Assembly (NCBI GenBank): GCA_037501455.1
Contig: CM074858.1
Location: forward strand, 41,413,001 to 41,477,000
Direction: 5' to 3'
Length of the DNA: 64,000 nt
Origin: Lantana camara
Taxonomy: Eukaryota; Streptophyta; Magnoliopsida; Lamiales; Verbenaceae
Within the stretch, counting starts at the first letter, position 1. Each line of letters opens with the position of its first letter. A program made the translations under genes and the position numbers. Positions 9,858 through 60,877 of the stretch are shown piece by piece. Below the pieces are notes generated by a model, which made no database searches, was not told where the DNA came from, and saw only the letters and a program-made list of their open reading frames with translations.

Positions 9858-10018
9858 AAACGCCCGTTTGAAAATTGGTCTAAAAGCTGTAATAGTGCCA
9901 AACGGGCGTTTGGAAAAACAACTAGGAGACCAAACGGGCGTTTGGGAAGCCTCTGGACGAAATTCTGGGTAGTGAAACGGGCGTTTAGGATTTGAACTAA
10001 GGGGCCAAACGGGCGTTT
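9858..10018 (-). repeat. Palindrome cluster in S1, arms AAAC/GTTT
   Basis: Five copies of a 12-bp palindrome: AAACGCCCGTTT at 9858 and AAACGGGCGTTT at 9900, 9932, 9975 and 10007. The last four form two pairs with 32-bp spacing. Sequences between copies are mostly unrelated. Confidence 0.9.
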
Positions 10019-10363
10019 GGGAAGCCGCTGGATGAAAAATAACAGGGGAAAACAGGGGAGGTCACGGGAATGGCTCCCAAGCATGCTCCAACACCAACCC
10101 AAGACATCAATCACGCCAAAACAATCACATAACATGTATACAAGTCAAATATATCATTTAGGCCACATTAAATCCAAGGAAACATGCTTTAATCCATCAA
10201 AACTCATCATGAAACCCTCAAAATTGGAAGTGATCACCCATGCTCCAAACTTCATGAACTCAAGTTATAATTGCATATATCAACTCATAAACTTCACAAT
10301 TAATTCATATTAAGTCATGGAGTCCAAAGAATCATGAAACCCTAACTTATGTTCAAATTCATC

Positions 10364-10370
<7 letters not shown>

Positions 10371-10412
<42 letters not shown>
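10371..10412. repeat. (TA)n microsatellite
   Basis: A nearly pure TA run inside S1, just downstream of its first donor-like site in sense orientation. Confidence 0.95.
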
Positions 10413-10418
<6 letters not shown>

Positions 10419-12221
10419 GCTTACCTTGAAGAAGATGATGGAAGAGGAAAGGAGAGATGAAGTGTGTGATGATTTTCCTTGGAGATGATGGAAGAATTCA
10501 TTGGCTCTTGGCTTGTTGGATGGATCTATCGAGATGGGAAGGAAGAAAGAATGGAGGGTTCTTGCTTGTCTTTAGAATGAGGAAAAATGAAGAGAAAATG
10601 GATGTATGTGTGTATATGTATATCGTGGAAATGGGAGGGGAAGAGAAGAAAAATTGCAATTTGGTCCTTGATAACTTTAAGTTAGGCAATTTAACTTCTA
10701 AGATTATGAAAATGATCATTTAGCTTCATTCACATTAATGCAATTAAGTTCACATATTCAAGAAATGATCAAGTAAGGACACGTATAAGCATTTAATCAC
10801 TTTATCAATTAATTCATGTAAATTTCATGTTGATGGTAATTCATATAAATTCATAAAGATATATTACATAATATATGAATGAAAAACGGGGCGTTACATT
10901 GGCATTGTTCGAATCATGTATGAGGGCATGTGAGATGCCAACATAGAATCTATCGCTCGTCTAAAAGAACAAGTGAATCACCCATGAATTCAATTGTAGT
11001 GCATTTCACTTAAATCCTTGCGCAAGGTAGTGAGATCTAAACTAGGAAATGAGTTTCCTAGAGTGTTAGATCAAATGGAATTGCTATTGAATTAATTCAT
11101 AGCATTAGGACTAATAAGGTTCTATCATTCCCATGCCCTACGTCCTAATCGGGGATTAGGCGATAGAAGGATCTTATCTCACAGTATCCATGAGACTGAA
11201 AGGTTCACAGCACAATCTTCACCCATTGGATGGGTGGTCATGAGCTTGTCACTAGACATCGATCATGATCTATAGGTACTGATTAATTAAAAGAAGTTTT
11301 AATTAAACAGTTATTAATTGAAAGAGTTTAATTGAATCAATAAGATAAATTGTTATCTGAAATACCACGTTTAAAATGTGGGCCTACTACTATTCATTTG
11401 TGAAACTAAGGGGTGACACAATGACTCGAATTGAACAACAAGATTATCTAAAGATCAATTGAGATTGATTGATAAATTAAAAGAGTTTAATTTATAAGAG
11501 AGTAATTAATTAATAATTGTATTAATTAATTTATGCTTAATTGTTAAATTATTGAGAATAGATGTTAAAGAGTTAACATTAATTTAAATAAGTGTATTTA
11601 AATTAATTGGACTTGAAATTCAATTAGGAGTAATTAATTTTTAAGTCCACAAATATAATTAGATATTGGACTTGTGATTTAATTAATGTAATTAAATTAA
11701 GTCCACTAATTAAAAATGAATATTGGGTTTTTAACTTAATTAAGTTGTAATTAAATATAAGCCCAAGACTGGCCTATAGGGTTTTTGACGCTAAGTATTT
11801 AAGCAAGATAAGGGAGAGAAATCAAACATCGTTGTTTTCTTCTTTTCTGCTTTCTCTCCAAGTCTCTCTTCTCTCTCATCTCTCAATACTGTATTGAGAA
11901 TGCTATTAGATAATCAATATCTAATTAGTGTTCTAGTGTGCTAATTGAATAGTTGTTCAATTACTGGTCGTGGACTACCTTAGAGGAATTCCGCGTGGGA
12001 TTCTTGGAAGAAGATCGGATAGAAGAGAAGCGGGTAGGATTTGGAAAATCTTCTTGTGATCGTCATCAATTGGAAGCGAATGAGGTAAAGATTCTTCTTT
12101 TGTTTAAATCGTAAATCTTGAATCAAAGGTGATCTTGTATGGAATTCCGATAAAATGTTTTTTTTTTTTATAATCCCTAAAATTTTAATTTCGGCTTCGT
12201 TAGGGTTGGCGAATTCCAACA

Positions 12222-12373: not shown

Positions 12374-14434
12374 TGTAACGCCCCCACTTGTACCAGAACA
12401 AGAGGAGAGCGGCGTCTCAACCCCCGCACTGAAGCACCTCTCAAGTAATGGTGTGAACCATCACTCAAAAAATACTTCAGCGAACGACTGTCTATCTCAG
12501 AACTATAATGTATAACGATGTGGCTATGCAGTGGAAAATCAGAGTATTTTAAAACTTTTCAAAACATGTGCGTGATGGCATGTAACAAGCAAGAACATAT
12601 TGATCATGTAAGAGAGACTCGGCATATCAGAACATATAACATATTCACAAATAAGTACCGATATAACAGAGTCCATAATATCGGTAACAGAGTAACAGAA
12701 AGAGTATAACAAAGATACCCAAGTATTCAGAAACATAAAGTGATGCAGCCATAAAACATATGCAGGACACAAAAGAGAAAGTAATACTAAGTCCTGACTG
12801 AAACAAAAATTACAATCTAGAGCTTCAAGATACCTCTAGACTGCGGCTGCAAGACTTGAAACCACGAGGCAAGAAAACGGGAGAGGTATTAGTCAAAAGG
12901 ACTAAGTGAGGGAATACTTAAAAGAAAGTACTGAATGATAAAGAACTTGAAGTAATGTTCAGAACTGTTAAATGCAATGCTTTAAAGAAGAACTTGAAAC
13001 AAGTTCAGTTGATAAAACTCTTTGAATGTGATGCTGTAAAAGAATGCACGTTTTAAAACATTTTCATGAATGCTATCACACGCGCACACATATGCTGTTG
13101 ATGGTTCATAGTTCTTTCATAAAACGGGATAAGGGTAAAGTGAACTTTTCTAGATATGAACCATCCTTTATGAAACAGAATTTTGCCCGCAAGCTAGGCT
13201 CCTCCATCCTTACTCCAGAAAACATGATTTCGTAGAGTATCGGACCGAGGTCAACAATAACTCCACACAGTAGAGTATCAGACCAAGGTCAACAATAACC
13301 CACTAACACATACAAACATACACCATCCTCCACCGGTTGTCACTTCGGGTAGCTAGCCCTAGGCGACCTATAAACATGTAATGGGAACAGATTTGCTGTC
13401 CGTTCCCAGACAGATTGTCCTGACTTAACAAACCTCCTGTTAAAAGTCGGTGTCAATTGTCTAAGTGTGGCGGCCGGTATTGGTGATATCGTTGGCGCAC
13501 ACCTCCTGAACATCACCTCCACACATAACCGCCGGGCCCAAACTGTAAACTGTATGCTTGCATTTAAGATTAGCAGTGACCAGAGTACCACTCCAGTATG
13601 CTAACTATAACATGTGAAACTGTAACTGTAACATATGATGCTGTCTGTAAAACATATGATTCTGCCTGAAAACATATGATGCTGTCTGTAAAACTGTACT
13701 TTGAAAACATATGTAGAACATGTAACTGTCTTTGAACAAGAATGCAGAACTTTGGAAAACATGTGTTGTAGATCAAGGTATACTATTAAAGTATGAATGA
13801 TCCTTTCAAAAGAATGTCCCGATAAAAGGGATAGTTCAAAACGAGGTTTAGCTTTGAATTTCAAAACATATGATACGATAGTATAATCGTGGTTCCAGTT
13901 GGAAAACATTTATAACTTCACCTCACCTATTAGTAACAAAAGGTAGGTAGACAGATTATGCGGTGCCCTGGGGATCCCAGTGCTCAACTTTAACTCCTGT
14001 AGGTGGTGTACTAGAGTGAGCATAAGAACTAAGACCCACTACTAACCAAGATGCATATGAAATGCATGAAACAATGAACAAGGAATTTGTAAAGAACATA
14101 TAACACAAGAGAGCAATACCATTTAAGGTATTCAAGAAAGGTAACACACAAAGGAATACGTTAAAGTGAGTTACTCACAACGTGAGACTATGATCTTACT
14201 ATAACCAAGTAAGCTTTAGTCAAATTATGAATCCTATCGCAAACCTTAGGTTAAGAAACAAGTCCACGAAAGAAAACACATTTTGAAAACTGTAACGCCC
14301 CCGTTTTTCTTATTTTGTACAGCATGACGTATGTGTTTATCAATTGCTCATATAATTAATTATACGTGTTTTACATATTTAATTTACTCCTTAAATGTAT
14401 TAAATGTTAATTATTTTATTTTAATAATATTAAT

Positions 14435-14515
14435 ATTATATATATATATATATCATTTTAATGATACTAATATTAAATATATTTATATATATAATATATA
14501 TATATATATATATGT
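14435..14515. repeat. TA-rich microsatellite
   Basis: Two interrupted TA runs near the 5' end of S2. Confidence 0.85.
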
Positions 14516-15848
14516 ATATACTTAAATATTTGCATGCATGATTTTGATAAAGTATATACGTATTTATTAAGTATTATTTACAATGTTATAAATTTTATTG
14601 TTACATTGCGTGTGAGTGACATTTACGTGCTTCGTTTCTATATGAATTGATACCGAAACTTCGTGCATATTTAATATGTTGAACTTATACGTGTCTTGTA
14701 TATGAATATTTATTCGTTTCGTATTTTCGGATTCAATTGCATGTGTTTCGGATTTAATTTGAATTTTGGAATTCAAGTTGGGGGCTAACGAGCACTTAGC
14801 GCACCCTTGGTTCCGTATTTAATATCTTGAGCTCAGGAACTCGGATTCGAGTTCCGTCAACTTCGCTGAACTCGTAACGAAAATTCAAGTTTAGTAAACT
14901 TAGCCTTATATTTTTCTAACGTCATTTGAACCTCCGAAATTCAACCGAAAAACGAGACGGCGACCAAACTGACCTTGAGGCACTAAAATGACCATAACTT
15001 ATTCAATGGTTGACCAAATTAACCATGGTTTGATGATATGGAACCCTAAATCAACCACCTAACCTGCTATACCATGCCCTAACCGAACCAACCCTCACAC
15101 AAACCACAAACCTCAGCTAAAATCTCTGAAATTCCAGTCTTTCCCGTAACCCTTGTGTCCTTGGAGATTTTGGAGCTCAAATCTCATCCAATCTTCATCC
15201 AATCAACAAGGTAAGCTTGGATATGTTATGTACATTCAATATGAGTCATTTTCATCTATTCATCCCTAAATTTAAGTATGGTTTTATGAGGTTTTGGCAG
15301 AGATGATTATAAATTTGGTTTTATGAAATTTTGTGGATCTCTTTCATCTCTTGAGCTTTTGATTGATACCAAGCATGAAATTGATTGTTTTGACCTCTTC
15401 TTTACATTTATGGTAATGTATTAGCTGGTAGTTGAGAATTGGTTGAGTTACCATTAATGAATTTTGAATGAAAATGGAGTTTTTTCCCCCTTCTTCATTC
15501 GTGTTGCTGTTGCTGCGTTTGATCTTCCTTGGGACTGAAATTGTATGTGGATTTGGAGGCTTTTTGCTACATTTTTGTTGCCTTGCCTTACCTGAACATG
15601 TTGGTTGAAGGATGGAATGTTGTTGCTCTGTTTTTCTCGTAAATTTTGCCCTGTTTTGATCGATTTTCTGCTGCTGTCTTCCTGCTGCGTTTTCTTGTTC
15701 TTTTGCTATTAGTTTTAGTAGCTTGTTAGAGCTATTTTGTTGTTGCTTTTCATGCCATTTGATGCTGCATACCTTGCCTAATTGTTGCTTGAATTGTTGC
15801 TCTGTTTTTCGCCAAGAAACAGAGATTATTTGTTGCTGCTGCGTTCTT

Positions 15849-15971
15849 GACACGGGGGTGTCGATCTTCTCCTTTTCAGCTTGTAACGGGGGTGCTTGGG
15901 GTCTGAAATTTCTGTACCGAGACACGGGGGTGTCTCGGTTTGTTCTATGTGAGTGACACGGGGGTGTCACC
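15849..15971 (+). repeat. Palindrome cluster in S2, arms GACAC/GTGTC
   Basis: Four copies with a GGGGG centre, at about 15849, 15883, 15919 and 15952. The spacing of cores is 34, 38 and 34 bp, that is two pairs. Arm extensions differ between copies but match within a copy: copy 3 is CGAGACAC/GTGTCTCG, copy 4 is GTGACAC/GTGTCAC. Copy 2 is degraded. Confidence 0.85.
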
Positions 15972-16005
15972 TTGTAATTTCCACGCATGATTTGTTGTTG
16001 TGTAC

Positions 16006-16250
16006 TGCTGCTGCTGCTGCTTCAATCTCTTTCTTTTCTTTGCATGCATGTGTTAATAAGCATGCATTTTAAGAATCACGAGAATTTTGTTAAATTGAAT
16101 TGCATGCTTCTTGTGCGTAGGCATGCATATATGTATATATCTACTTAAATATTTGCATGCATTTTAACAAGTAAATTGCATGCATGTATTAGTTTAAATG
16201 CATGAAAATTTCATGCAATATGCATGCATGTGTGTACGTTGCATGCATGT

Positions 16251-16252
<2 letters not shown>
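16006..16252 (+). repeat. CTG run and dense GCATGC words in S2
   Basis: A short (CTG)n run at about 16008-16020 is followed by many TGCATGCA words between 16040 and 16250, ending next to a pure TA tract. Confidence 0.8.

Positions 16253-16256
<4 letters not shown>

Positions 16257-16306
<50 letters not shown>
16257..16306. repeat. (TA)n microsatellite
   Basis: An uninterrupted TA run of about 50 bp in S2. Confidence 0.95.
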
Positions 16307-16307
<1 letters not shown>

Positions 16308-18132
16308 CATATTTATATATGTTATTAAATATTAATTGTTATTTGAATTAATTGAATTTTAGAATTTAATTGTTACCTATTTCATGTTTGATTTAATTTC
16401 CAATTGTAAATTGAATGTGTTTAATTGTTATTTTCTAATTTTAAATGTGATTTAATACGTGTTATGCTCCTATTTGAATTTCTTGAATTGAATTGATTGG
16501 AAACGTGAAATTATGATTTCTAATGAAAGTGAATGAAAGATTGAACGACTTGATTATATAATTTAAATCTCCTGTGACGAGAAATGTGAAGGATATGAAC
16601 TCGTTTGAATACGAATGCTTCATTAAATGAATGAATTGAATGTTTATATGTCTTTAAGACTTTAATAGTGCACATGAACGTGTTAATTACATTATAGCAT
16701 CTCTTATATATTCATTTCATAATCATTTCATTGTCGAGTGTCTTATTTAGTCATATTGAGTCTCACTTCACCTCTCTTGCACAGATTTTGAGTCCGTTGG
16801 AGACGAGGCCGGTCTGTGAGGCTCGTGTGTTCTCCTTGTTGCCGTTTAAGGTGGGTTTCTCTACTATTAGATAAATGACCCTATATACCTCAACGTGTAA
16901 AGATTTCAGCTAAAAACTATTATATGTATATAGAGTCGTTTTCTAGAGTAAATGATTTCAATGTAAAGCCTTTCTTTCATGAACCTACCAAATGTTTTGG
17001 CGAGAATGAATGAATGTTCACAATGAATGGGGCCCAGGGACTTGGTGTGAGTGGGGAACCGAGAAGGCATGGACTGACGGGAAACCCTTACACTAGTCCC
17101 ACTAATGAACGGCGTAACCAGACCTCGTTAGGAGTTAGCGAGGAATGGACGCTGAGTGCCATCTGGGGAGTCATGTTCCCCTTTTGGTCAATGAATGGGT
17201 GGATGGGCCTTGCAAACCCAGCACCAACCCGGAGGAAGAAGGTGGAATGTTATTGAATGCGCACGAAAGATTGAAATGCATGGAAAGAATGAGTGAATGA
17301 ATGTTAATGAATGTTAATGAATTACACGAGGTGTTGGTTGGAGATAATGTACGCCCACTCGCCGGGCCAATAATGACCTAATGTTAATGAATCGTTATAA
17401 TCCCTTTTGATGATTTCTATTCACCCACTTGGGAAATTCTTTAAAACCTCACTTGGGATTATAGCTTGCATGTGATTGTTTAAATATTGTCGTATATTAT
17501 ATTATGCCCTGCTTTTATACCCACTAGTCCCTTTTGGACTGAATCCGTTTGGCTTTCAATTGTGTTGTGCAGGTGTCAAGGGAGCTAGGCGGGATTTCGA
17601 GTCATAGGTCTTGTTTTCGTTTCTAGCCCTTTTGTGTATTGAGCTTACACTTGCATTTTGCACTTGTGATCATTGTATATGAATGTGGATATGGAGCGTA
17701 CTTGTTTTGAGCCGTGACGGCCAGTATTGATGTATATGACTTATTTTTAGAGCGGTGAAGCTTATTGTTCATGTAAATGATGTAGGTTCGTTCATGGCTT
17801 CCGCTTTAATGTTTATTCTGATTTTATGGTTCAAGGGTTAGTCCCGCCTAGCATAGAGTGTGTGTATATCCCCGTTCACCGTGATTTGGCTCGGGTATAG
17901 ATCATCCATTTCATATTCGGGTCGGGCTCGGTGTGGGGGATGTGACACCTTGCGCTCGGGTGTTACAAAAACACATTTTAGACCCTAGATATGGAAACCC
18001 TAGGTGCAAATGTCTATTAAGGAAGTACAACTTTTATTTCACTTTTACTATTCAAAAGCACTATTCAAGATTACTATTTATAGTTACTATTCATAGGTTA
18101 CTATTCACATGTCGGGTCAAACCCTTACTATA

Positions 18133-18199
18133 CACACACACCCACACACACGGTACACACACACACCATGCACGTACACACACACACACACACACACAC
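18133..18199. repeat. (CA)n microsatellite in the G1 3' LTR
   Basis: An interrupted CACA tract. The same tract in the 5' LTR (33675-33758) has a different length and interruptions. Confidence 0.9.
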
Positions 18200-20361: not shown

Positions 20362-20366
20362 ATGTC

Positions 20367-23300
20367 TGTGACGCCCCGCTTCTCGATCAAGGTAGGGTTT
20401 GGCTCGAGAGTGTACGATTTACCTTTCTATGCATGATTTATGTGGATTTATGCCTTAATTTGATAGACATTTGGTGCTTATGTGAAAAATAGGATTTACA
20501 TGACTTATGTGGCTATTTGATATGATAAGTATGTGCTCGTATTGTGCTTAAAGAGTTTTGATAGCATGTTTTATAGTTTGACGAAACAATGTGCTTATAT
20601 GAATATTAAAGCATAATTTAGGGACTATATGGTAAATTTATTTTCCAAGCCTGAAACTGGTTAGAACTTAATGAAATTGAGTAGGTAATTCGATTACGAG
20701 TTCGTGGGTTCTTGAATCGCTCAATTCGGAGTTCGGACGAAGAAGTTATGGCCATTCTACGAAAAGTCAACCCTTTTAAGCCTAAATGTTGACCTGCGAC
20801 CCAATTTCAATTCTGACCCAATTTGAGATCCAATTTCACTTAAATCCGACCCGTATGACCCGCTCCATGATCCTATTCAGCTGACCCAAATCAGATCCTA
20901 AACACCAAACATAAGTTACGTTATTTTCCAAGAATCATATTCATTCTCTCCTAACACTTTTCAAAGTCTATTCATATTCTCTCAAGAACTTCATGCCATC
21001 TTCAAGAGCCAAGAGTGAAGGTTAAAGCTGGAGATTCAAGACTAAAGAACAAGATTTCTTCTTCGATTTTCAGCTCTCAAGGTAAGCTTATGTGCTCTTT
21101 TCATGGGTTTGTGTTCTTGAAGCTTTTAAGCTTGAATATGAATCTAGGGTTCATGATAGATGGATTAGATCCGAATTTTATGATGGAAATATGTTTATCT
21201 TGATGCTAGGAACGATTTGATATAAGAATTTCGTGTTTTCATGTTCATTTGAAGATTTCACCATTAAAGCACTTTGAAGCTTTTCATAAGAACTTATGCA
21301 TGTTCATGCCCTAGCTTGTTTTAACTTGATTTGATGATAGATTCTTGTTCCTTGAGAAATTCCATGAAGAATGTGATTATTTCCCTTGAGTTTCTTGCAT
21401 GATTGATGATTTCACCATTGTTGTGCTTGAAGCTTTCTTGAAACTTGTAGAAGATGAAGTTCTTGCATGAATTGCTAGATTTCTTGATGTTTAAATGTTC
21501 CTAAGTGCTTTATTATGTAACTTGATGATTAATGATGCTTAATTGTGGTTTTGGAAGCTTAATTTCATGTTTTGGGGTGTTTTGAACTCATTCCCGTCGA
21601 GTTTGAAGTTGCTGTCACGTTTTTTTTAAGTTCTGGGCAGAATCCACTAGGGCGGATTTTTACTGTGTAAAAATCCATGGGGGTGGATTTGAGGCAGTAG
21701 CTTCTGGACAATCCGCGAGGGAGGATTTTTTGTGAAGGAAAATCCATGGGGGTGGATTTTCCCCAGCCTTGTTTTCTTGACTTGTTTCACTTGTTTTGAC
21801 TCTTGTATGTCCTTTTCTTGTTTCTATGATACCTTTAATGAGTTGTGGCCGTATTATATGTGGTGGAACTTCTTGCATATCACTTGTTATGATTTTATTG
21901 CCTTGATCAAGTTTAAGTTGTCACATTTTGCTAAGTTATGCATTTACTTGTATGACTTCCTACGTTATGTGTGACCTTGACATGCTATACATGCTCATGA
22001 TTGATCCTCACATCTCATGCATACCTTATATTATGATCTCTATACCTCAAGCATGCTTAAGTTATTTTAATTGACTAAGTTATGCGTTTAATTAAATTGT
22101 GTTAAGTATGATTCATAGGTCGCTTAATACATATGACTTGAGAACTTGATACATAACTCTCATAAGTGACTTGTTACTTAAGCCGTGCGTCGTTTACTTG
22201 GTTTGGGTCGTGTCTTACCTTTGTTAGTACGTTTGTCTTGTTAGGTGGTGAGTCTCCGGCCGAGTAGTCCGTTGCTCGTGGTCGACCTTTGAGGTTCTTG
22301 GTAAAGGTGAGGAGCTATAATATAAAAATGTTTTCTAAACCTGTGGACACATATGACCTATAATGTTTGATGGTTTTGAACTCCCATTTTCGAAAAGGTA
22401 TATGTAGGCTTAATAAGCCAAGTTTTGTGAGCGTTGCTCATATTACGATGTTTGACTATGGAAAACGGTTTACAAGTAGAACTTGAATTGGTATATGGGA
22501 TAGGTACCCAAAATGCTATTTTGGAACTTTCATTCGAATATTATATATGTATGTGTGAGTTGTGTAGCGAGGTTATGATGTACCTTGCGAGGACGCTTGC
22601 TTGGGGTATTCTTCGAAATTGAGCTCGGGTAAGGAGGTGAGAGATATTCCGGGAAGGCAAGGGCCGACAGATGTCCTTATCCAAAGTTCCCACTGTGGAC
22701 AAGACTACTAAGACACCGAGGAGGTTTCGGGGTTGAAGTTTTCTTGGAGAGAGCTAGGTTACATGGACCGAATTCTCCACTCAAAAGGCAAAAGGGATGC
22801 TCGGGGGGGGGGGGGGGTGCACTCCCTCGACATCAACGGCGTAAAGGTTGGATTGGTTTGATTTCTTGGTTTGGGAAGATCGGATGTAGTGCTCGTTCTC
22901 GCCGAGCCGGTTATGTGTGGTTTATGATCCATATTTTTCTAAAACTTGCATTTACTTTGAAAATAAGTTGGATCATGAACACCTTTGTTTTGAGCATGCA
23001 TTAAACCCTTTTATATCACTTATATTATGTACACTTCTCCTCACCGGTTCCGTTTGAACTGAACTCCTTTACCTTTCGTGTCCACAGGTCGTGCTTTGGA
23101 GTCTTGCTAGGCGGGGTCTTGCTTGAGAGTTGTTGTCGAGTCTAGCTTTACTTGTTGTGTCGTAATATACTTTATGTTTTACGTTCCGCTTTTGGATTTA
23201 TGGATCCGGCTTGTATGGTGAATTATTATGCTAGTTTGGAACGGGTTGGTCGCTAGGTTGATTTTACATTCCGTATTTTGGGCATTTTGTGCTGGACCGT

Positions 23301-23530
23301 GATAGTCACTTAATTGTTGAATGAATTGACTTATGCACGTATTATGTTTTGATCTAAGCTTCCACATACTTGTGTTTTTTATTCTCGATTTGTGAGTCTA
23401 GCACCGCCTAGCTAGGTTGTCCGTTTGTCACCGCTTGCTTCGGCCTTAGCGGGTATATGGATAACAATTCTATATACAAGCTAGGTCCGTAGCGCGGGAT
23501 AGGCGTGGATGCCCTTGTTGGGGCGTTACA
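20367..23530 (+). mobile_element. Solo LTR S3 (gypsy type) inside G1 pol
   Basis: 3164 bp, from TGTGACGCCCCG to TTGGGGCGTTACA, flanked by ATGTC (20362-20366 and 23531-23535). It separates the integrase C-terminus from the chromodomain of G1. Donor-like CAAG|GTAAGC at 21081/21082, palindromes 21641-21760, acceptor TTGTTAG ending 22244, putative 62-nt exon 22245-22306, donor AAAG|GTGAGG, acceptor TCCACAG ending 23087. The terminal part is more diverged than in the other LTRs. A short poly-G run lies near 22803. Confidence 0.93.
21641..21760 (+). repeat. Palindrome cluster in S3, arms AATCC/GGATT
   Basis: Four copies start at 21641, 21672, 21710 and 21741: two pairs, each spaced 31 bp. The clearest copies read AATCCATGGGGGTGGATTT. 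Confidence 0.88.
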
Positions 23531-44449: not shown

Positions 44450-44620
44450 AATTTCATTCATTCATTTATTCATGGGGTCATTACGTGAGCCCGGCGAGTG
44501 CGCGAATTCTCCAACCTTCTCCTCGTGTGTACATTATTCATTCATTCATTACGGTCATACAACAATCAATCATTCGTTAATTCATTCGTTCATTTAATCA
44601 TTATCATTCATTATCATGCA
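44450..44620. repeat. Degenerate CATT/ATTC-rich stretch in Ld
   Basis: Repeated TTCATTCATT words in an interrupted tract. Similar words occur at the corresponding place of other LTRs here. Confidence 0.7.
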
Positions 44621-45649
44621 ATCACTTACACCTTCTACCTCCGGTTAGTGGACGGACTCGGCCAAAGACCCGTCCACCCAATCATTGTGGCCAGTAGGTT
44701 CATGACTCCCCAAAGGCCCGGTTCCCATTCCTTGCTAATCTCCTAGCGAGGGCCGGTATCGCCATTGTTTGGTGGAACTAGTGCACGGGATCCCCATCAG
44801 CCCTTACTTCCCCAGTTAGCCACGTGCACCAAGTCCCAGGGCCCCCATTCAGTGCAATCAATCATTACTCGCCAAAACATTAGGTAGGGTATTCAATAAA
44901 CAAAGGGCTTTACGTTTAAAATCATTGACTCTTCAAAGACTCGATATGTACATATATTACTTTGGCTTAAAACATTGCAGATTGGGAATATATCGGGTCA
45001 TTTAACTAATATAGAGGAGAAACCCACCTGTTACACCTTACCGAACCAAAATCAAGAAGAAGGAAAGACATGAAGATAGCTTACGAACCTGACAAGTCTC
45101 CGCCCTGGAGAAAACTGTATAAAAGACAACACGGTGCACAAGTGAGACTCAAGACTTCAAATGAACCACAAATGACGCACGACAATGCAATAACATGATA
45201 AAACATGCATGGGCAATAACAATATGCCAATAAGATGTTCATGTATACAATTAATGTCATTTAGACACGTAATCAAGCTATTCATTCATTACTCGAATAC
45301 ATCGTGTCCGATCGTTACCATTCTTTCATTCAATATCAATCGTTCATTCAATATTCAAACTCTTAACACGTTATAATATATTCTAACAATGCATATGAAG
45401 TAAAATCATGTCATGAAGCCACATAATCAAGTAATTCGTTCAAGTACATTCAATACATGAAGTTATCAAGTTCAATCGTTCACAACTTTCATATCCATAT
45501 CAAATCAAGTCATAAGTTTCATATAGCAATCATAACACATCCAATGCACGTTAACAAAGCTTAGGAATCATAAAAAGGGGTAGGGAAAGATCAAACAAAC
45601 AATGAGACATGAGAAAACAGAAAACAAACCACAAGGGACTGCTGACAGG

Positions 45650-45768
45650 ATCCACGGCCGTGGATTTGAGATCCACCACCGTGGATCTTGCCCCAGAAAA
45701 TTCCCACAAACCGTCCCTAAATCCACACCCTTGGATTGGTTTTCAAAGAGAAATCCACGACCGTGGAT
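45650..45768 (-). repeat. Palindrome cluster in Ld, arms ATCCAC/GTGGAT
   Basis: Four copies start at 45650, 45671, 45721 and 45753. The second pair is 32 bp apart; the first pair is 21 bp apart, the only pair deviating from 31-34. The best copy, ATCCACGGCCGTGGAT, is a perfect 16-bp palindrome. Confidence 0.88.
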
Positions 45769-45808
45769 TTAGTTGCAGAAGCTAAAATAAGGTAAAACTG
45801 GGCATCCT

Positions 45809-48800
45809 TGTAACGCCCCAACTTTTTAGTCATACAGGTATGACTTATGTGATAATTACATGCGCGTTTAATTTATTTTATTTATGTTGTTATTCATTTT
45901 ATTTTACATTAATTGGAATTCTTGAATATTTGAATTAATTGAATTTGAATTTTATGAATTCTTGAACTATATGCGCATGTGTGAATTGTTTGCGTGTCGT
46001 TTCTATATGAAAGGAATTCCGATTTTCGTGGAAATTTAATACGTTGGATTTATACGTGTTATGAATGTGGATATATACTCGTTTCACATTTTTGGATTCA
46101 TTTTCATGAGGTTTGAATTTAATTTGAATCTTGGAACCAAAACGGGGGCTAACGAGCAATTAGCGCACCCTTGGTTCCCTATGTGATATCTTGAGCCCGG
46201 GAACTCGGATTCGAGTTTCGTCAACTTTGTTGGACTCGTATCTAAGATTCGGCTTTAATGACTCTAGCCTCATATTTTTCTACACCTATTTGAACCCCCG
46301 AAATTCAGTCGGAAAGTGAGTCATCCGCCAAAGTGCCACACTTAGCCATTTTCCTTATAACTTTCACCACACTTAACCAAATTAAGCATTGTTAGACTTT
46401 TTGGAAACCTAACTTAACCTAGTACCAGTTCCTAAAACGGCCAAACCGAACCATACTCAGCACAAAGGAGAAAAATCAACCTAAACCCCTGACTTCTAGT
46501 CCCATTCTCGCCACCCCACAAGCTTGGAGATTTTGGAGCTCAAATCTCTCTCAACCATCAACCTATTCAAAAGGTGAGTTTAGGGTTGTGATATACATTC
46601 ATTTGTGATCATTTTGAACCATGCTTCCCTAATTTTGAGCTAGTATTCATGGAGATTTGAAGGCATGAGTGAATAGTTAGGTTTTGGATCCATTTCTTGA
46701 TCTCTTTGAATACTTGAAGCTTTTGATTATTTTATGGCATGAAAGTGATCACCTTACTTCACTTATTTCATTTATGATCATGTATTTGGTGGTAGTTGAG
46801 GATTAAATGTGTTACCATTAATGACATGGAAGGAATTTGTATGAAATGATCACTTGCTTCTCTTTGGTCACGTTTGATGCTTTGATGCATTTTTTAGTGG
46901 TACATTAGAATGGTTTTGTTGCATATTTGTTGCTCCTTTGCACCTGATCTTCTTGGTTGAAATTTGGTATGGTTTCTACCCTATTTTTGCTGCGTCTTGC
47001 TGCTGGTTTGAGCAAGTCACGGCCACGATCGAGCCAAGAGTAAACTTGGTAGCGGCCGTAACTCACTCTTACATTTTGGTCCGAACTTCAGGTTGCGCCC
47101 GCTACCTGAATTAAATGCATTTCATGTCGCGGTCGTGACTCAAATTTGTCCTGCTCTCGTACTCTTGAAAATTGCATTAAAATTCCTGAAAAAAATTAGG
47201 TAGCGGCCGCTACCATTTTGTGAACAAAATGGGTCGCGGCCGCAACCCTCACATATTCTGCATGAAATTCGAATTTCAAACTCAAATTGCTTGGCTTTCT
47301 TGGCTTGTTTTCAGTTCATACACTCTATTAACATGTCATATTATGTGTTAACTTGTATGTTATGAACTTTGGCATGAATTCGTGGACTATTTTCCGAGAT
47401 ATGGTTCATTATATCTTCTTTGCTCCGAGAACGTGCATGCATGCTTCATTGCTTCTAATATGAACCCTAATTGCTTATTTATCTTCTCTTTTATGAATTA
47501 TATGAATTATGTTCATGCTAAGGTACGTGTTATGTTTGCTATGTGAAACCTTTGGATTGATTTGATATGAAACATGAAGGATATGAACTCGAGTGAATAT
47601 GAACGCTTCTTATTATTAATGAATGACTTGTTTACATGCCTTAAATGAATTAATCGTGCGCATGAACATGTTTATGACATAATATCATATATTATGCATT
47701 CATATCATATTCATTACGTTGCCAAGCGTCTTATATGGTCATTTTGAGTCTCACTTCACCCTTCCTTGCACAGATTTGGATCCTATTGGTGACGAGGTCG
47801 GGAAGTGAGGTCCTCGTTCCATTTCTTCTGTCTTACAAGGTGGGTTTCTCTTCTATTAGTTAAACGACCCTATATACTTCCAATGTGAAATGATTTAATC
47901 CAAACTATTATAAGTATATATCGAGTCTTTTAAAGAGTCTATGAATTTTAACGTTAATCCCCTTTTCTTCATTGTTACCCTACCTAATGATTTAGCAAGA
48001 CATGATGATTGCACGGGCCTAGAGACTTGGCACATATGGCTATCCGGGGAGGCAAGGGCCGACGGTGATCCTATGTGCTAGTCTCAACTAAACTACGACG
48101 ATACGGGCCCTCGCTAGGAGGTTTAGCGAGGAATGGGAACCGGGCTTTTGGGGATTCTTGTACCCCACTAGCCACATTGATTGAGGTGGTCGGTCCTTGC
48201 AGACCCGTCCACCGCCCGGAGGAAAAAGGAGTTTTAATTGAATGATTATGAATGATCGAATGATTATGATTGATCGATTGATTGTGTACAAAAGATTGTA
48301 TGTGTGTAAACCTAATGAACACTTAATGATTACACAAGGTGTAGGTTGGAGATTTAGCCTTCTCGCTGGGATCACGTATAACATATTGAATAAATTTGGT
48401 TGTCATAATCCCGTTTGATGATTTCTTATTTTACCCACTTGGGAATTGTTCTAAAACCTCTTATGGGATTATAACTTGTATGAATGTCATTAAATTCCAC
48501 ATTACTTATATATATTGCCCCATTTTTATACCCACCAGTCCCTTTTGGACTGAACCGGTTTGGTTTTCAGTTTGTGCAGGTTTTGGGATTTGCTAGGCGG
48601 GAATCCGAGTCTTTGGGATTTGTATTTGAGTCTAGCATCTCTTTTGTTATATTACACTCATCTCATGTTGATATTATGACTTGATATTGTATATATGGAA
48701 CGTATATGATAGACTAGGCCGCGATGGCACTTTTGTATACTTGCACACTTGTATTATTTATTTTTGGAGCTTGAATGCTCATGGTATATATTATGATCTC

Positions 48801-48993
48801 GTTTAGCTTCCGCTCTTGCATTACTCTGTTTTAATACTTTTGTTATTGATTGGTTTAAGGGTTAGTCCCGCCTAGCATAGCGTGTGTGTAGTGCCCACGT
48901 TCGCCGTGATTTAGCTCCTGTATGAATTATCCATTTCATATGCGGGTCGGGTCTCGGTGCGGGGGATATGGTACCTTGCGCTCAGGCGCTACA
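45809..48993 (+). mobile_element. G3 5' LTR
   Basis: 3185 bp, TGTAACGCCCCAAC to AGGCGCTACA. Module GGGGGCTAACGAGCA at 46145, donor-like AAAAG|GTGAGT at 46573/46574, palindromes 47015-47247, acceptor TTGCACAG ending 47773, putative 66-nt exon 47774-47839, donor CAAG|GTGGGT, acceptor TTGTGCAG ending 48579, hairpin 48537-48551, CTAGGCGGG near 48593, terminal module from about 48895. It is the only LTR here that is joined directly to visible gag-pol and also has the full palindrome/leader layout. Confidence 0.9.
47015..47247 (+). repeat. Palindrome cluster in the G3 LTR, arms GGTNGC/GCNACC
   Basis: Six copies start at 47015, 47048, 47091, 47125, 47199 and 47232: three pairs spaced 33, 34 and 33 bp. 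Copy 5, GGTAGCGGCCGCTACC, is a perfect palindrome; the others vary at the fourth arm base and the outer bases. Confidence 0.9.
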
Positions 48994-49001
48994 TCCCTAA
49001 G

Positions 49002-52429: not shown

Positions 52430-52853
52430 TGTAACTTCCCGGTTTTTCATCCGTACAAATATGTCGTTTGTGTTTATAAATTGCGCAAATTAAATTATTT
52501 AATTATGTGATTAATTGTTTATAAGTGTTTTAAATATTTAATTCTAATATAAATTGTTATTGGTTTATTTTATTTCATTTTATTATTTTATTTTATTATG
52601 TTAATTAAATATATTTTACCTTTATTAATATTAAAATACAATTTAATTTGTACACTTTAAATTTAAACTATAGTATACGTGCCTTTGACTTTAATTAAAT
52701 TAATATGTACAATTTAATATTAAAAGTATATTTTATTTCATGCACTTTATTATTTATTTCAAAGTTGAATTTTATTCTGTTATAATTTATTAAATGGATT
52801 TATTTTTTTTAGTGCATTGCTTATGAGTGCATTCCCTAGACTCTTGCTGCAAA

Positions 52854-52915
52854 CCATGGTTAACCAAATTGAGCAAGGTTTGAACCATGGTTAACCAAAT
52901 TGAGCAAGGTTTGAA
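52854..52915 (+). repeat. Tandem duplication of 31 bp
   Basis: Two adjacent copies of a unit beginning CCATGGTTAACC, at 52854-52884 and 52885-52915, upstream of the first donor-like site of the G4 LTR. Confidence 0.92.
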
Positions 52916-53560
52916 CCCACATGACCCTAGTTAAACCCTCTACCAGATGCTTCCAATCTCATTTCATTCAAGGCAAGGGAAAGAGAGGAAATTGCTGCAA
53001 ACGTGGAGATAAAATTACTATTCCCATCACTATTCATTTTTTGAGATTTTGAGCTCCAATCTCAACCAAACTCAACCAAATTCAAGGGGTAAGTTTATGA
53101 ATGCATTCTCCATCCTTTCCTCTTTCTTTAGACTCTTTATTTTCAGATATCCATGCAGATATGAGCTTGATTTGTGGAACTTGTTGAATAGTTAGGTTCA
53201 ATCTTCATTTCTTGAGTTCATGACCTTATTTTCGAATTCCTTGAGGATTAATGCATGAAATATGACCACTCTAACTTCCTTTACTTGGTCATGGATTTGA
53301 ATTTGAGTTATATGTCGTGTATATGGACCCTCATTGGCTGCAACTTGAATTTTGGAGCTTTAGGGACTGAATTTCTTGTTTTGCTGCTGCTGTTGCACCG
53401 TGTTTGTTGCCTTCTTTCCTTGCTTTAGCTACTGAATTTGCTGCCTTAGAGTGCCTTCTTGTTGTTGCTACTCCCCACACTTCCTTCCCCCTGTTTTGCT
53501 GCTTGAGAAGTTGAGAAACAGGGCTGCTCAGGTTGCTGCTCGTAGTTGCTGTTATGGTCT

Positions 53561-53680
53561 CCCCGGGCGGGGAGATCTTCCTTTGTTTGCGTCCCCGGGC
53601 GGGGACGCTTGAGGCAGTAGCCTCTGCCTTCCTTCTACCCGGCCGGGAAAGTTCGCGTGGGAAGCTTACCCGGGCGGGGA
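53561..53680 (+). repeat. Palindrome cluster in the G4 LTR, arms CCCC/GGGG
   Basis: Four copies start at 53561, 53593, 53637 and 53668: two pairs spaced 32 and 31 bp. Copy 1 extends as TCTCCCC/GGGGAGA and copy 2 as GCGTCCCC/GGGGACGC, so each copy is matched within itself rather than to its neighbour. Confidence 0.9.
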
Positions 53681-53859
53681 GAATACCTTGCTCTGCTGCT
53701 GTGTTACTGTGCTGCGCTGCTTTCTTTCTTGTTGTAATATGCATGTATATATATATACCTGATCTGCTGCTTCTTTCTTCCTGATTCCTCCTGCTGCTTC
53801 TTGATTTGCTGTGTATAGTGTATATACATATATTTAACGTATGAGTGTGTGCATGGTGT

Positions 53860-54060
53860 TTTTATATATATATATATATGTGTGTGTATGTATGTATTTG
53901 TTATGTGTGTGTAATTTATGTTTTGCATGCATGTATAAATATATATATGTATGATATACTGTTGTGTATGCATCAACGTGTGTATATATATATATTATAT
54001 TATATTGTGCATGTATATATATCTATTAGTGCATGTATAGGTACGTACATGTATATATAT
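53860..54060. repeat. TA/TG-rich microsatellite region
   Basis: Alternating TATATA and TGTATG runs in the G4 LTR after the palindromes. Confidence 0.85.
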
Positions 54061-54717
54061 TATGTGTGAATGTGTATGAGTTATAATAATTTTATATATT
54101 ATGTATTGTTTAATTGATTTGATTATAGAATTTAATTGTTATCTATTTCGTATTATTTAATTACCGATCATCACTTGAACGTTTTATTTGCCTAATTTAT
54201 AATTGTAAACTTGAGATATTTGTGTTTTAATTGTTATATGAAATTCTTGACTTAAATTGTTATGGTTTACGAAATGAATGAACGTGAAACCTTCGTTTAT
54301 TGATTGAAATTGATCGATTGGCTCGACTTGGCGTGATTCATGAAAGGATATGAAACAAATGAGTATGATACCTTCATTTCTTGAAAGTACTTGAATGAAT
54401 GACTTGTTTATATGCCTTAAATGCATTAATAGTGCACATGAACATGTTCATGACATAATATCATCTTTTATGCATTCATATCATGTGCATAACAGTTCCG
54501 TCCGTCATATGTGGTTCATATGAAGTCTTGAGTCTTACGTTTGCACTGTGTCAATTCTTTGACAGTTCTTCAGGGCGGAGACGTGCCGGGTTCATAGGTT
54601 ACTTTCAAGCCTTCTTTTCTTCTTGGTATTGTTCGATAAGGTGTAACAGGTGGGTTTCTCTTCTATTAGCTATGATGACCCCGATATATCCTTATGTGAA
54701 GTTTTAAGCCAAAATAT

Positions 54718-54736
54718 TATATATATGTATATATAT

Positions 54737-54772
<36 letters not shown>
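54718..54772. repeat. (TA)n microsatellite
   Basis: TA run in the G4 LTR, just downstream of the second donor-like site. Confidence 0.92.
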
Positions 54773-54775
<3 letters not shown>

Positions 54776-55907
54776 GTCTTTTCAAAAGAGTCTATGATTT
54801 TCAATGTAAAGCCCTTTTTCTTATCATGAATCCCTACCAAATGTTTTGGCGAGATCAGTGAACACATTGTTATGGGGCCCGGGACTACGTGTACGTGGCT
54901 ATCCGGGGAAGCTCGGGCTGACGGTGATCCCCGTGCACTAGTCCCAACAAATATTAACGGTTATACCGGCCCTCGCTAGGAGATTAGCGAGGAATGGGAG
55001 CTGAGTGCCTTTGGGGAACTAATAAACCCCCTATGGTCAATGATTGAGGTGGCCGGGTCTTGCTAACCCGCCCACCACCCGGAGGAAGAAGGTTGGAACT
55101 TATTGAATGAAATGATTATGAATGATATGATTATGAACTTATGCTAATGAACGAATGCATGAACGAATGAATGAATTAGTTAATGCACACACGAGGAGAA
55201 GGTTGGAGAATTCGTCCTCTGGCCGGGCTCACGTAATGATCACATGATTGAATGAATAAATGAAATTGATTGTTGTAATCCCGAGTGTTGTTTTACTTTG
55301 TTTTCGCCAACTTGGGAAATATTTAAACAAACCTCACACGGGATTATAGCTTGCATGTGGGCGTGTTTAAATTCTATAATATTATTTATATTATGCTCTG
55401 TTTTATACCCACCAATCTCTTATAGACTCAACCCGGCTTTGTTTTCAGTTCTTTGCAGGTTTTGGAGTGCTAGGCGGGAAGTCGAGCCTGTTGAGTCTCT
55501 TGATCGAGTTGGAGTCTATTTTTATGCATTTTGTAAGGTGTTAAGTTATAGATTTGCATATGAATTATTTTGATGATATGATATTGTTTCGGGACAGACT
55601 TCTAAGGATAATGAAACCCGTGAATTTGAGATTATGCTTTATGTTTTAATTTTTCGATATTAGGTACTCATGTTAGTGATCTTTTCCGATAAACCTCGTG
55701 ATTGATTATATGTCCTGCTTCCGCACCTGCATTTAATTCTTGAACTCGTTTGTTTGGTTTCGAGGTTCTAGCTCCCGCCTAGCCTAGAGAGTGGGTGAGT
55801 CCCCGTTCGCCGTGATTCGGCTCGTGTATGGACTACCCATTTCATATGCGGGTTGGGTCCTGGTGCGGGGGATGTGGGGCCTTCCGTTAAGGTGCTACAT
55901 TCTTAAG

Positions 55908-56890: not shown

Positions 56891-57118
56891 ATGGCATTTT
56901 CAAGCTCATTGAAAGCTAAGGTACCAAAGGTTCTATCCTTGGTCGGATTGAAGTCTGCTTTCCAGACTCAAGCTGAATTATCGGGTTATGAGTTTGAGTT
57001 GGGAGTAATGAAGCAACAAATGGAAACGATAAAGAAAGGCAAAGAGCTGTTGGAGGGAAATTATGTGCCCAAGTGTAAGCAATTGGAAGATGAGTTAATT
57101 CAATCATTGAACTCGTAA
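56891..57118 (+). CDS. Small, possibly coiled-coil ORF in the G4 interior
   Basis: 75 codons; the second half is charged and heptad-like (ELGVMKQQMETIKKGKELLE), consistent with a coiled coil. The related stretch of G5 (61750-61920) is similar in nucleotide sequence but has a stop at codon 7 and a 13-bp tandem duplication, so it is not open there. I do not recognise a family. It may be a remnant of a larger protein of the autonomous ancestor, or chance. Confidence 0.35.
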   Translation: MAFSSSLKAKVPKVLSLVGLKSAFQTQAELSGYEFELGVMKQQMETIKKGKELLEGNYVPKCKQLEDELIQSLNS

Positions 57119-57984
57119 ACAATAGTTAAAGGAACTTCGACCAAAGTACTACCTAAGACGAAGATTCAGATCATCTTCAAAGACTGATACTTGGAAAGAG
57201 TCAAGATGTCGGTTCCATTGGAGTAGAAGAAGTTGGGTTCGAGGGATTTCAATTTCGGATCGCGGGAACACATAAGGGGATACAAGAAAACTTTAAAGAT
57301 CTAGAAATATATGGGTTCAAGAGATCGTGATCTCGGACCATGGAGATTTGAGGACTAGGGGAAGTATCATCAACGATCAGACAATGTTTAACCTTATGAC
57401 TTATGCTCACAACATCGAGATGAAAGGACAAGATGTCGTGCTAAAGACACCACTACGGTGACAGGTTCAATGCATTCATAGCACGTGCATCATGCATCGT
57501 AATTTAGTTATTTAAATTCTTATTACATTCGTTTTAGTACTCTAATTGTTAAATTATTGTTACAGACTTATTTATTGAATTATGTGCCTTGATGTTGCAA
57601 TTCCTTGTTTAAAACATCTGTCACATGCATTTATCATCTTAACCCAGCATGCACCATTTTAGAGTTTACTTGTTAGGATTTTGCTGTTTACTACTTTCAC
57701 TATTACTTCGATCAAAGTCCTATAGAACAAAGTGAAGAAGAAACATTTTGGGTTGATAGAATGGGACAAAGAAGGAAGTGGAAGGCTTCAGGACATATAA
57801 ATTAGATGAGACAAGTTAATGAATTTAATGAACTTAATCAGGAGTTTGGGGAAGCAAAAAGGAAAAAGGGTAGTTGCTCCAATCAAGCACTTTAAAGTGG
57901 ACGCGAACTAAGCCATTGAACACATTGTCTACTTACAGTTGTTCGTCCTAATGAAATAAGTTTAGGGAGATCAGGAATTCTTTT

Positions 57985-58003
57985 TTTTTTTTAAGGGGGA
58001 GAG
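57985..58003 (+). promoter_or_regulatory. Polypurine-tract-like sequence in G4
   Basis: A T-run followed by TTAAGGGGGAGAG, the layout common before 3' LTRs of plant gypsy elements, but no LTR follows directly. A matching sequence lies at 62617 in G5. Confidence 0.4.
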
Positions 58004-58242
58004 CACGACCAAGAGATAAACGTAAGAGTTAAGGTTGTGCTCGAAGAGTATTCTAGTAGGAACAACAACAAATGTAAACCATAGACGATTTGGAAGTGCA
58101 AGTGATGGTGATCGGAAAAGGATGAACGGTCTTAACAATGGAACCATCAAAATGAAAGTTAAATCACTATACTCAACTTGAAGATTGCTAAGGGATATTC
58201 ATAGTACGAGGTTGAAATTTTGAAGATGAGGGAATTATGAGG

Positions 58243-60877
58243 TGTAACGCCCCGGGTTTTCCAATCAATCATTATGGGATATTATATATTACATTATATT
58301 AAATTTCACAACATTGTATGTAATATATTTTTATGCATTTATATGAATTATCATTAATGTGGAATTTACGTGAATTAATTGCTAACGTGCATAATTGTTA
58401 TTATGTGACTTTACTTGATCATTTCATAAATATGTGGATTGAATTGCATTAACATGAATAGATTCAATCGATTAATTTCCATAAGATGAAACTTGATTGC
58501 ATTAATTCAAATAGCTTAGGGACTTATTTGCAAAAAGTGATGAGTCATGCAATGTCTTGGAAGACTCATGTAAATATCCATTTTCTTCCATTATCTTCAT
58601 TTTCATCAACAATTCACACACACACACTAATACACGGTAGAAACACCATAGAAGGAAGGGAAAGGATTTCATCTCAATTTCAAGCTTGATTCAAGGAAGA
58701 TAATTGCATATTTGGAAGCATCATCCTCATCTCATCGTTTCATCCATTCCTTATTCTAGTTCAAGGTAGAATTGAGATTTGGTTGAATTTCTTGAATTCA
58801 TGTTGAGTAGGGTTTATGGAGTAAATGGTGAATTATTGTATGTTTGGAGCTAGAAGCATGCTTAGGATTAAAAAGGGATTGAATTTGCATGGAAACTTTG
58901 GTTTATTTGAAGGTTGGAAGCATGTGTATAAATATGGGGTTTTAATGATGAATTGTGAAGCTTGAATGTGTAATTCTTGGTTGGATGGTTGAATAAGTGA
59001 AGTATAGTGTATATTTGACATACTTTAACATTTGCTTTGGAGTGGTCATGCATTTGTTGGTGTTTTGGAGAGTTTTGGCACGAAAATCCCCTGTTTTTCC
59101 CCTGTTTTGCTGCTGCTGCATAACGGGTCACGACCGCGACTGAAAATAGGCCAAAATTGGTCGCGCCCGCGACCCCATTTTAGCCAAGTTTCGAGTTTTG
59201 AAAAAATTGGAGAAAATTCGGCCAGAAACTGCATTTTGTCCAACTTCAAACCAACGCCATTTTCACCTCGGTTTGAATTAGAAAACGTGTCATATAGCAT
59301 TGCAAAGGTCTTTGTGTCTATTTTCATACCCAATAAACAAAACTCAATTCCCATATCTATAATTAAAGATATTCCAGTTTTCCCTCAACATGTATATTTT
59401 CTAAAATTGTCCGTTTTTGCTAAACTTCACCAAAACCTTTCATATTACATTCTTTTCACTTCTTTGGCTCTCGTATGTGACCTATATGAGTTATAAACTT
59501 GTTTTAGTGATAATTATTCTCATAATTAACATTGCTTGATTATTATTACGTGACATATTGATTAAGACATTGTCGTGCGTCTTAAGTGGTTCATTTGAGC
59601 CATGTCTCACGAACCCTTGTCCTTATTGCACAGATTTCCTTCCCGTTGACGAGGAGCACGCACCATAGTTATATCCTTGTTTTGATCATCACAGCTGAGG
59701 TTTAATTTCTAGATATATAGAACCCTAAAACCCTACTTGATGTTTCAGCCAAAATGTATCTCTATATCTATAGTTTTCCCAAACTTTAATTACTTCAAAA
59801 TTGATCGATTGTAATTGCTATTGTATTGGCCGATTGTTATCGTATTGAGCGAGTAAAGCATGTTCACATTGGGCCCGAGGGTAGTGTACTGAGCCAACCG
59901 AGGAAGCAAGGGCTGACAGGTAACTCTTGCACTATCCTCACAACTTTGGGATGCCCCCTGAATCCACTAGGAGGTTAGTGGAGGAAGGAGTTCCGGGTAT
60001 AGGGAATCATGAACCATATACTCAATGAGCATGGATGGCAGGGCCTTGCAATCCCCCATCAACCGGAGGAAGAAGGAGACTGGGGACGGGTCCGGCACCA
60101 CGGATTGTCCTCGGATTATTGTCATGATTGCACTTATTGATTGTCTTGCTTGAATACAATATGCACGAATGCACAATAATTGAACTGCATGATCACCTAT
60201 TGATTAATAAAGCAAGCACGAATTGTACACAGTCGGAGTAAGGTTGGAGAATTACCCTCACTCGCCGGGCCACTGATTGAAATGAATTGTAATTGATTGT
60301 ATTGTTAAATTGGATAGTTGTAATCTCGGGCGAAGATTATTTCTTTTATTAATGTATATTGTTTCAACTGTAAAAGACTTTACCCGAGATAATAGCTTAC
60401 ATGATACGTGCGCTAATATTTATTTAAACCCCTCACTCAGTCTGTGGTAGACTGACACCTCACAAATTTTCAGGTCGTGCAGATCGAGTGCTAGGCGGGG
60501 TTGAGTCCATTTTACAGCTTTTGAGAGTCTAGCATTGATCTTTCATTGTAATGCATGTCTTGAATGTTTATAAATTTTGCGAGTATGTATTGGTACCTAT
60601 ATGTATATTTTGTACTAGTATACTTGCAACTTGAATCCTTGGTGATGTGCATATTAAATGAGAACATAGAATAAGTAGTGGTATGAATGTATAGTTCTAT
60701 GCTTCCGCTTTTATTTTGAATTGTTGTATTATTTGAGGGTATCCCGCATAGCTAGTGCAGGTTTTTTTTATTGTCACCCGTTCGCCATGAGTCCGGTTCA
60801 TATATGGACTACCCATTTCATGTGTGAGCTAGACTTATGGTGCGGGGGTGTGGCATCTCGGCGTTCCGGGTGCTACA
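58243..60877 (+). mobile_element. G5 5' LTR
   Basis: 2635 bp, TGTAACGCCCCGGG to CCGGGTGCTACA. Donor-like CAAG|GTAGAA at 58765/58766, palindromes 59126-59174, acceptor TTGCACAG ending 59633, putative 66-nt exon 59634-59699, donor GAG|GTTTAA, hairpin 60439-60453, CTAGGCGGGG near 60490, terminal module from about 60776. Confidence 0.88.
59126..59174 (+). repeat. Palindrome pair in the G5 LTR, arms GGTCGC/GCGACC
   Basis: Two copies start at 59126 (GGTCACGACCGCGACT) and 59159 (GGTCGCGCCCGCGACC), 33 bp apart. This is the only cluster with a single pair. Confidence 0.85.

Follow-up and report, generated by a model that had tools for sequence, protein, structure and literature searches.

Each of ten long terminal repeats (LTRs) in a 64,000-nucleotide window of the Lantana camara genome (assembly GCA_037501455.1, contig CM074858.1, positions 41,413,001 to 41,477,000) carries a cluster of short GC-rich palindromes, most of which are arranged in pairs with a spacing close to 32 bp. 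The window holds nested LTR retrotransposon DNA, and all results below come from it. A reading made from the sequence alone (hereafter the sequence-only reading) had reported such clusters in ten divergent LTRs. The ten clusters were confirmed, and the LTRs represent nine families, given that D1 and D2 (28890-31533 and 37705-40366), at 87% identity, belong to the same family (designations as in Table 1). The palindromes share a CGG-CCG signature and differ between families mainly in the arms that flank it. We lean towards regarding the clusters as cis-regulatory arrays in the unique 3' (U3) region of chromoviral Ty3/gypsy LTRs, bound by paired proteins.

A stem-loop scan of the whole window returned 64 GC-rich palindromes, the cluster members among them. 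A dyad score applied blindly at a threshold of 7.0 found 24 sites in nine LTRs, compared with a mean of 5.1 and a maximum of 10 in 30 shuffles. Thirteen site pairs lay no more than 100 bp apart, and six of these were spaced at 31-34 bp, a spacing that occurred in none of the 30 shuffles. The six pairs were located in D (two), S1 (one), H (one) and G (two, one of which involves an unrelated AT-rich palindrome). The same score, run on nine other stretches of the window (30 kb, including both copies of the LTR of element J and a Copia-like region), gave 12 sites, two close pairs and none at 31-34 bp. The clusters of S2 and S3, in which the centre is unpaired over four bases, escape the blind score, and those of E, F and I are caught only in part. 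With the strongest palindrome of each family as the seed, two to six clustered copies were recovered per LTR; shuffled LTRs gave means of 0.1-0.7 matches and maxima of 1-3, S3 excepted. Four isolated seed matches, with 5 mismatches and >600 bp away from the cluster, were left out: one each in S2 and I, and two in H. A stricter test for clustering of copies with the same arm flagged nothing in the nine other stretches and only S1, D2 and F among the ten LTRs; the blind score is the better control.

Spacing was measured centre to centre between adjacent sites within clusters, with D2 left out, giving 27 spacings. Fifteen of these were 31-34 bp, nine being exactly 32 bp, whereas random placement within the same spans with a 16-bp minimum (16-100 bp for the two-copy family I) gave a mean of 2.3 and a maximum of 10; none of 20,000 simulations reached 15. 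A 31-34 bp spacing was present in all nine families, compared with 2.0 expected (0/20,000). Inclusion of three weak sites placed by hand raised the count to 17 of 30 spacings, against a mean of 2.7. Because whole pair units have been duplicated in S1 and perhaps in S3, not every pair of an LTR counts as independent; when S3 was omitted and only one S1 unit was kept, 12 of 21 spacings fell at 31-34 bp (mean 1.6, 0/20,000). The total is 17 pairs in the nine families (15 automatic, two after hand-placing) plus three in D2, that is, 20 instead of the 21 originally counted. The pairing itself and its excess over chance within the window hold, and the five pairs given as examples (30327/30359, 9900/9932, 41984/42016, 47015/47048 and 53561/53593) read as described, as does a single 21-bp pair in F (45678.5/45657.5).

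The paired copies lie in unrelated surroundings. Over 17 pairs (34 comparisons of 14-bp flanks), the flanks had a mean identity of 0.407, compared with 0.400 in shuffles, and a single comparison of the 34 reached p<0.05; the homologous flanks expected within a simple tandem repeat were therefore not found, in agreement with the original claim that simple tandem duplication is insufficient. These unrelated flanks also rule out that the pairs arose by duplicating a 32-bp unit.

Among 78 half-sites (39 copies, three of them hand-placed), C occupied position -3 in 70, G position -2 in 66 and G position -1 in 49. The CGG-CCG signature is present and is weakest in S3, the full CGG often appearing in one half only. 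The centre, initially given as GGCCG, GGGCG or GGGGG, is indeed GC-rich and is better written (A)CGG N CG(T). In the outer four bases, which form the arm, the copies of one LTR were 78% identical to each other; for copies of different LTRs the figure was 32%. The cluster blocks are richer in GC than the rest of the LTR in 10/10 cases. The observed/expected CpG ratio is higher in the block in seven of the ten LTRs and lower in S2, S3 and F. Eight LTRs (not F or G) have TATA-like words in the 420 bp downstream of the cluster. Comparison of D1 with D2 revealed two differences in 96 palindrome sites and 12 in 129 spacer sites (Fisher p 0.028); the 5' part of the LTR upstream of the cluster differed at 150 of 942 sites (p 3e-5 against the palindromes).

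In the arrangement we propose, each palindrome would be a nearly two-fold-symmetric binding site with two half-sites, each half-site consisting of the family-specific 4-base arm and the common (A)CGG core. With two sites 32 ± 1-2 bp apart, or about three turns of B-DNA, a pair of protein dimers, or else a single tetramer, could sit on one face of the helix. Between one and three of these pair modules, in tandem and separated by loose gaps, would then drive or gate LTR transcription, possibly through a factor of host origin. A literature search for LOB-domain proteins as candidate binders gave nothing usable.

Several observations weigh against this proposal. The S3 seed scan gave four matches, compared with a mean of 1.55 and a maximum of 6 in shuffles, which is no significant excess; two of the S3 copies are identical 20-mers. 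The S3 cluster also lies past the LTR middle, at 0.56-0.59 of its length. J, a chromoviral LTR present in two copies and thus a negative control within the window, has no palindrome cluster, and the feature is not universal. The central base pair is mismatched in 27 of the 39 copies. Spacing fits poorly in S2 (35-37-34) and in F, in which the second pair is at 21 bp. Gaps outside 31-34 bp show no helical phasing (Rayleigh p 0.72 at 10.5 bp); phasing across all gaps is unsupported, and the gaps between pairs are loose. No conserved TATA position was found downstream of the clusters in the ten LTRs, so promoter-proximal placement is not supported. In the 3' part of the LTR, downstream of the cluster, 66 of 1430 sites differ between D1 and D2, and the conservation of the palindromes does not significantly exceed this (p 0.31).

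The elements bearing the clusters are assigned to the chromoviral Ty3/gypsy class on account of the domains of G and J, their primer-binding site (PBS) and the 68% identity of the J and G pol regions over 1.3 kb; we presume that they are of the Tekay/Del type. The LTRs start with TGTAAC and mostly end with TACA (TCACA in S3), and target-site duplications (TSDs), read from the flanking sequence, border S1, S2, S3, D1 and D2. The PBS TGGTATCAGAGC, which we take to match initiator-Met tRNA, follows G, H and I and also occurs at J. Element G encodes gag, protease and RNase H domains, its integrase end being cut off, and gag gave four matches, two of them cotton proteins. Element J has the order protease, reverse transcriptase, RNase H and integrase, followed by a chromodomain, and so combines the gypsy gene order, the presumed initiator-Met PBS and a chromodomain after the integrase. 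H and I are assigned to the chromoviruses by their PBS and LTR homology alone. S3 and E have no internal region; S3 also matches no other LTR in the window and has a long branch in the tail tree, so that its lineage is an unproven member of the chromoviral group. An Rfam search gave no match at the gathering threshold, and no relatives were found in a viral contig collection. Four related loci in a genome contig collection held 1, 0, 0 and 2 GC-rich palindromes and no cluster. Four bacterial genome records (Labilibacter, a Microbacteriaceae metagenome-assembled genome, Robertmurraya and Mangrovicoccus) encode gypsy pol relatives, which looks like eukaryotic contamination.

Some sister families differ in their arms but retain the CGG core and the spacing. 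LTR tail trees grouped S1 with I (100/100 in one tree, 81/92 in another), H with F (100/100 and 100/99) and G with S2 (97/96 in one, unresolved in the other). The sisters S1 and I have different arms, as do G and S2; H and F have TCC in common and differ at -8 and -4. The expected agreement of arms within an LTR was borne out and their difference between families only in part, as arms are also alike across forks of the tree: the outer four bases of S3 and F are identical, and G and I agree at 72% and S2 and E at 65%. In a composition-matched simulation, three identical outer 4-mer pairs among nine families had a P of 0.003 and two pairs a P of 0.012, with the 4-mer cut chosen after looking and the third pair requiring the tie in E to be read as TGAC, not GGAC. 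Arms common to distant families may be inherited rather than convergent, given the weak U3 similarity of S2 with E and of G with I and the fact that the tail tree is unrooted; exchange of whole U3 modules is a further candidate cause. It is a possibility of some weight, though we would not bet on it, that the pair is ancestral to the lineage and was simply inherited with only its arms drifting. The stretch of G with its first pair aligns to the I pair (94 bp, 64%, E-value 1.7e-5), and the U3 regions of G, S2, E and H are distantly related. Ancestry is compatible with protein binding and accounts for the origin of the arrangement, but not for the survival of spacing and symmetry while spacers and arms change, for which selection is still needed.

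An alternative that we consider rather unlikely is a role of the palindromes as hairpins (of RNA or single-strand DNA) in LTR transcripts, where they might serve, for instance, as structural signals or hotspots of small RNAs. Eight of nine blocks fold better than shuffles, with z-scores of -3.4 to -6.7 (S2, -1.4); however, any palindrome folds well, and these scores restate the presence of palindromes. Small RNAs map in excess to LTR palindrome clusters of maize Sireviruses, according to PMC10760457 and PMC5311732, citing Bousios 2016. In the present LTRs, compensatory double changes numbered 5 against 4.99 expected, among few informative changes, and compensatory stem evolution is unsupported. 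Furthermore, the arms are alike between sites within an LTR, though a stem needs complementarity alone; the core, equivalent to the loop, is the best conserved part across families; and the fixed 32-bp spacing has no obvious reason in RNA. Because folding is expected of palindromes and compensatory changes are at chance, DNA half-sites are preferred over RNA stems with moderate confidence, and the roughly three turns between half-sites appear to fit the paired binding on one DNA face that the sequence-only reading had suggested better than its RNA alternative.

It is improbable that the protein bound at the sites is one of the element's own products (Gag, integrase or some other), with each family recognising its own LTR. 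The largely family-specific arms, different in the sister pairs S1/I and G/S2, are what a self-recognition code would produce, but a limited set of host factors would better fit the same or nearly the same arms in distant families (S3/F, G/I, S2/E). Five reading-frame pieces of G and J gave only gag, protease, reverse transcriptase, RNase H, integrase, a zinc knuckle and one sub-threshold SANT-linker match, extra reading frames not having been searched systematically.

Least probable, and largely refuted here, is that the clusters are by-products of slippage or tandem duplication in which drift preserved the palindromes: a unit of ~75 bp holding a pair was indeed duplicated in S1 (9893-9962 and 9970-10037, 81% over 70 bp), pair-unit duplication is possible in S3, and one measure of spacer likeness gave p 0.005 for S3 units, p 0.04 for S1 units and p 0.03 for two D pairs, but only the D pair remains below 0.05 by a second measure, the short flanks within a pair are unrelated, pair and gap lengths alternate instead of repeating, the same spacing recurs in nine families, and it persists after S3 and one S1 unit are dropped.

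Table 1. LTRs of the window and their palindrome clusters (positions of the window; spacings in bp).
LTR	Range (strand)	TSD or PBS	Cluster	Palindrome centres or pairs	Spacing order	Arm	Core	Remarks
S1	8095..10898 (-)	TSD GCCAA	9855-10021	9863.5, 9905.5, 9937.5, 9980.5, 10012.5	32-43-32-42	CCAA	ACGGGCGT	solo LTR
S2	14291..17967 (+)	TSD AAAAC	15847-15971	15855.5, 15890.5 (weak, hand-placed), 15927.5, 15961.5		TGAC	ACGGGGGT	solo LTR
S3	20367..23530 (-)	TSD GACAT	~21639-21762	21649.5, 21680.5, 21718.5, 21749.5	31-38-31	ATCC	ATGGGGGT	solo LTR
D1	28890..31533 (-)	TSD CTCAC	30326-30556	six palindromes, three 32-bp pairs	32-47-32-69-32 (family D)	GGGA	ACGGNCGT	solo LTR
D2	37705..40366 (-)	TSD CCTCA	39161-39390	six palindromes, three 32-bp pairs				solo LTR, same family as D1
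E	40367..43344 (-)		41984-42116	two 32-bp pairs	32-52-32	TGAC or GGAC (tie)	ACGGCCGT	interrupted by D2; probable 3' piece 37214-37702, 3' boundary inferred; range analysed 40600-43344
F	43869..45808 (-)		45649-45770		32-50-21	ATCC	ACGGCCGT	5' side truncated by element G
G	45809..48993 (+)	PBS at 49002	47014-47248	pairs at 33, 34, 33 bp; 47022.5 and 47132.5 hand-placed	33-43-34-74-33	GGTN	GCGGCCGC	5' LTR of element with gag-pol
H	52430..55899 (+)	PBS at 55908	53558-53682	pairs at 32, 31 bp	32-44-31	CTCC/GTCC	CCGGGCGG	LTR, then PBS
I	58243..60877 (+)	PBS at 60885	59125-59174	one pair	33	GGTC	GCGGGCGC	LTR, then PBS
J	31645..35656 (-)							4-kb 5' LTR of chromovirus; second copy 12374-20110, interrupted by S2

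J is apparently one chromoviral element extending over 12374-35656, with its 5' LTR at 31645-35656 and its 3' LTR at 12374-20110. Its LTR pieces are 94-95% identical and carry a 21-bp tandem repeat (13604-13694 and 32828-32920), and three solo LTRs (S2, S3 and D1) interrupt it. The segment at 36472-37210 (K) adjoins the probable 3' end of E (37214-37702), the two being related LTR tail fragments with 73% identity. A G-rich block, TGCGGGGG (TGTGGGGG in S2), lies ~40-50 bp before the LTR end and is conserved in S1, S2, D1, D2, F, G, H and I; a polyC-rich 'integrase signal' reported for Sirevirus LTRs offers a point of comparison. A TTTTCAG-like word followed by a GCTAGGCGGGA block is conserved in the LTR tails ~370-460 bp before the end (for example, D1 LTR positions 2206-2270), and the word may represent a splice acceptor or some different cis signal.

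The sequence-only reading knew of no described system of this kind, which does not hold: palindromic repeated motif (RM) boxes were reported in 13 Copia Sireviruses, 12 of them with a CGG-CCG signature (PMC2829016; Bousios et al., 2010). The RMs described there differ between elements, lie upstream of a TATA box and are called Sirevirus specific, being absent from the classic copia elements compared; the parts consulted give no spacing rule and describe no search for RMs in gypsy elements. Sirevirus RM clusters define a CpG island, the counterpart here being the GC content and CpG ratios given above. Both systems consist of multi-copy palindromes in plant LTRs, with GC-rich blocks and a sequence conserved within an element and different between elements, and neither has a single binding factor assigned. 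The Sirevirus boxes lie mostly in the upper half of the LTR, as do the clusters of S1, S2, D1, G, H and I (0.32-0.45 of LTR length; E and F are incomplete), unlike that of S3. The systems differ in superfamily (Ty1/copia versus Ty3/gypsy chromoviruses). Copies number at least eight per RM-bearing Sirevirus element and two to six per LTR here, where half of the ten LTRs are solo and the rest belong to incomplete elements. In addition, the Sirevirus RM has variable bases between CGG and CCG, whereas the two abut at the dyad in the present LTRs, and a fixed pair spacing such as the 32 bp found here is unstated in the parts of PMC2829016 consulted. Maize Sirevirus palindromes (Bousios 2016, as presented in PMC10760457 and PMC5311732) likewise form highly variable clusters in the cis-region of the LTR, for which a cis-regulatory role has been proposed; those are Copia elements, and the evidence is small-RNA mapping.

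Short symmetric or repeated activator boxes in U3 are also a feature of tobacco Tnt1, in which box BI is symmetric and BII is a ~31-bp tandem repeat; these are repeats of one sequence in one Copia family, whereas the present pairs have unrelated spacers and occur in nine families. The symmetry of Tnt1 box I is also mentioned in PMC2829016. PMC6911290 concerns palindromes at insertion sites, and in PMC11963269 the word for palindrome is confined to the reference list. Among the matches listed in the open-licence literature, none by title or abstract opening dealt with such motifs in gypsy or chromoviral LTRs. Palindromic CGG-CCG LTR motifs are known from Copia, and their 32-bp pairs in chromoviral Gypsy LTRs appear to be new.

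We tentatively suggest, with low confidence, a two-part operator code in which a fixed frame (CGG core, dyad symmetry and 32-bp pairing) would be combined with an interchangeable arm specific to the family; all copies would switch arms together, and the repertoire of arms would be limited. Diversified plant DNA-binding proteins, acting as activators or silencers, would be in a running recognition contest with the retrotransposons, and the Copia Sireviruses would have converged on the same frame. Little is generally known of how long-LTR Gypsy elements of plants become active or of the host proteins that recognise them. The motif frame common to nine families (16 bp, in two copies 32 bp apart) offers a specific target for finding the factor, and the changes of the arms allow the idea of a recognition contest to be tested. 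Should Copia Sireviruses have the same frame, two superfamilies would have reached a similar control design.

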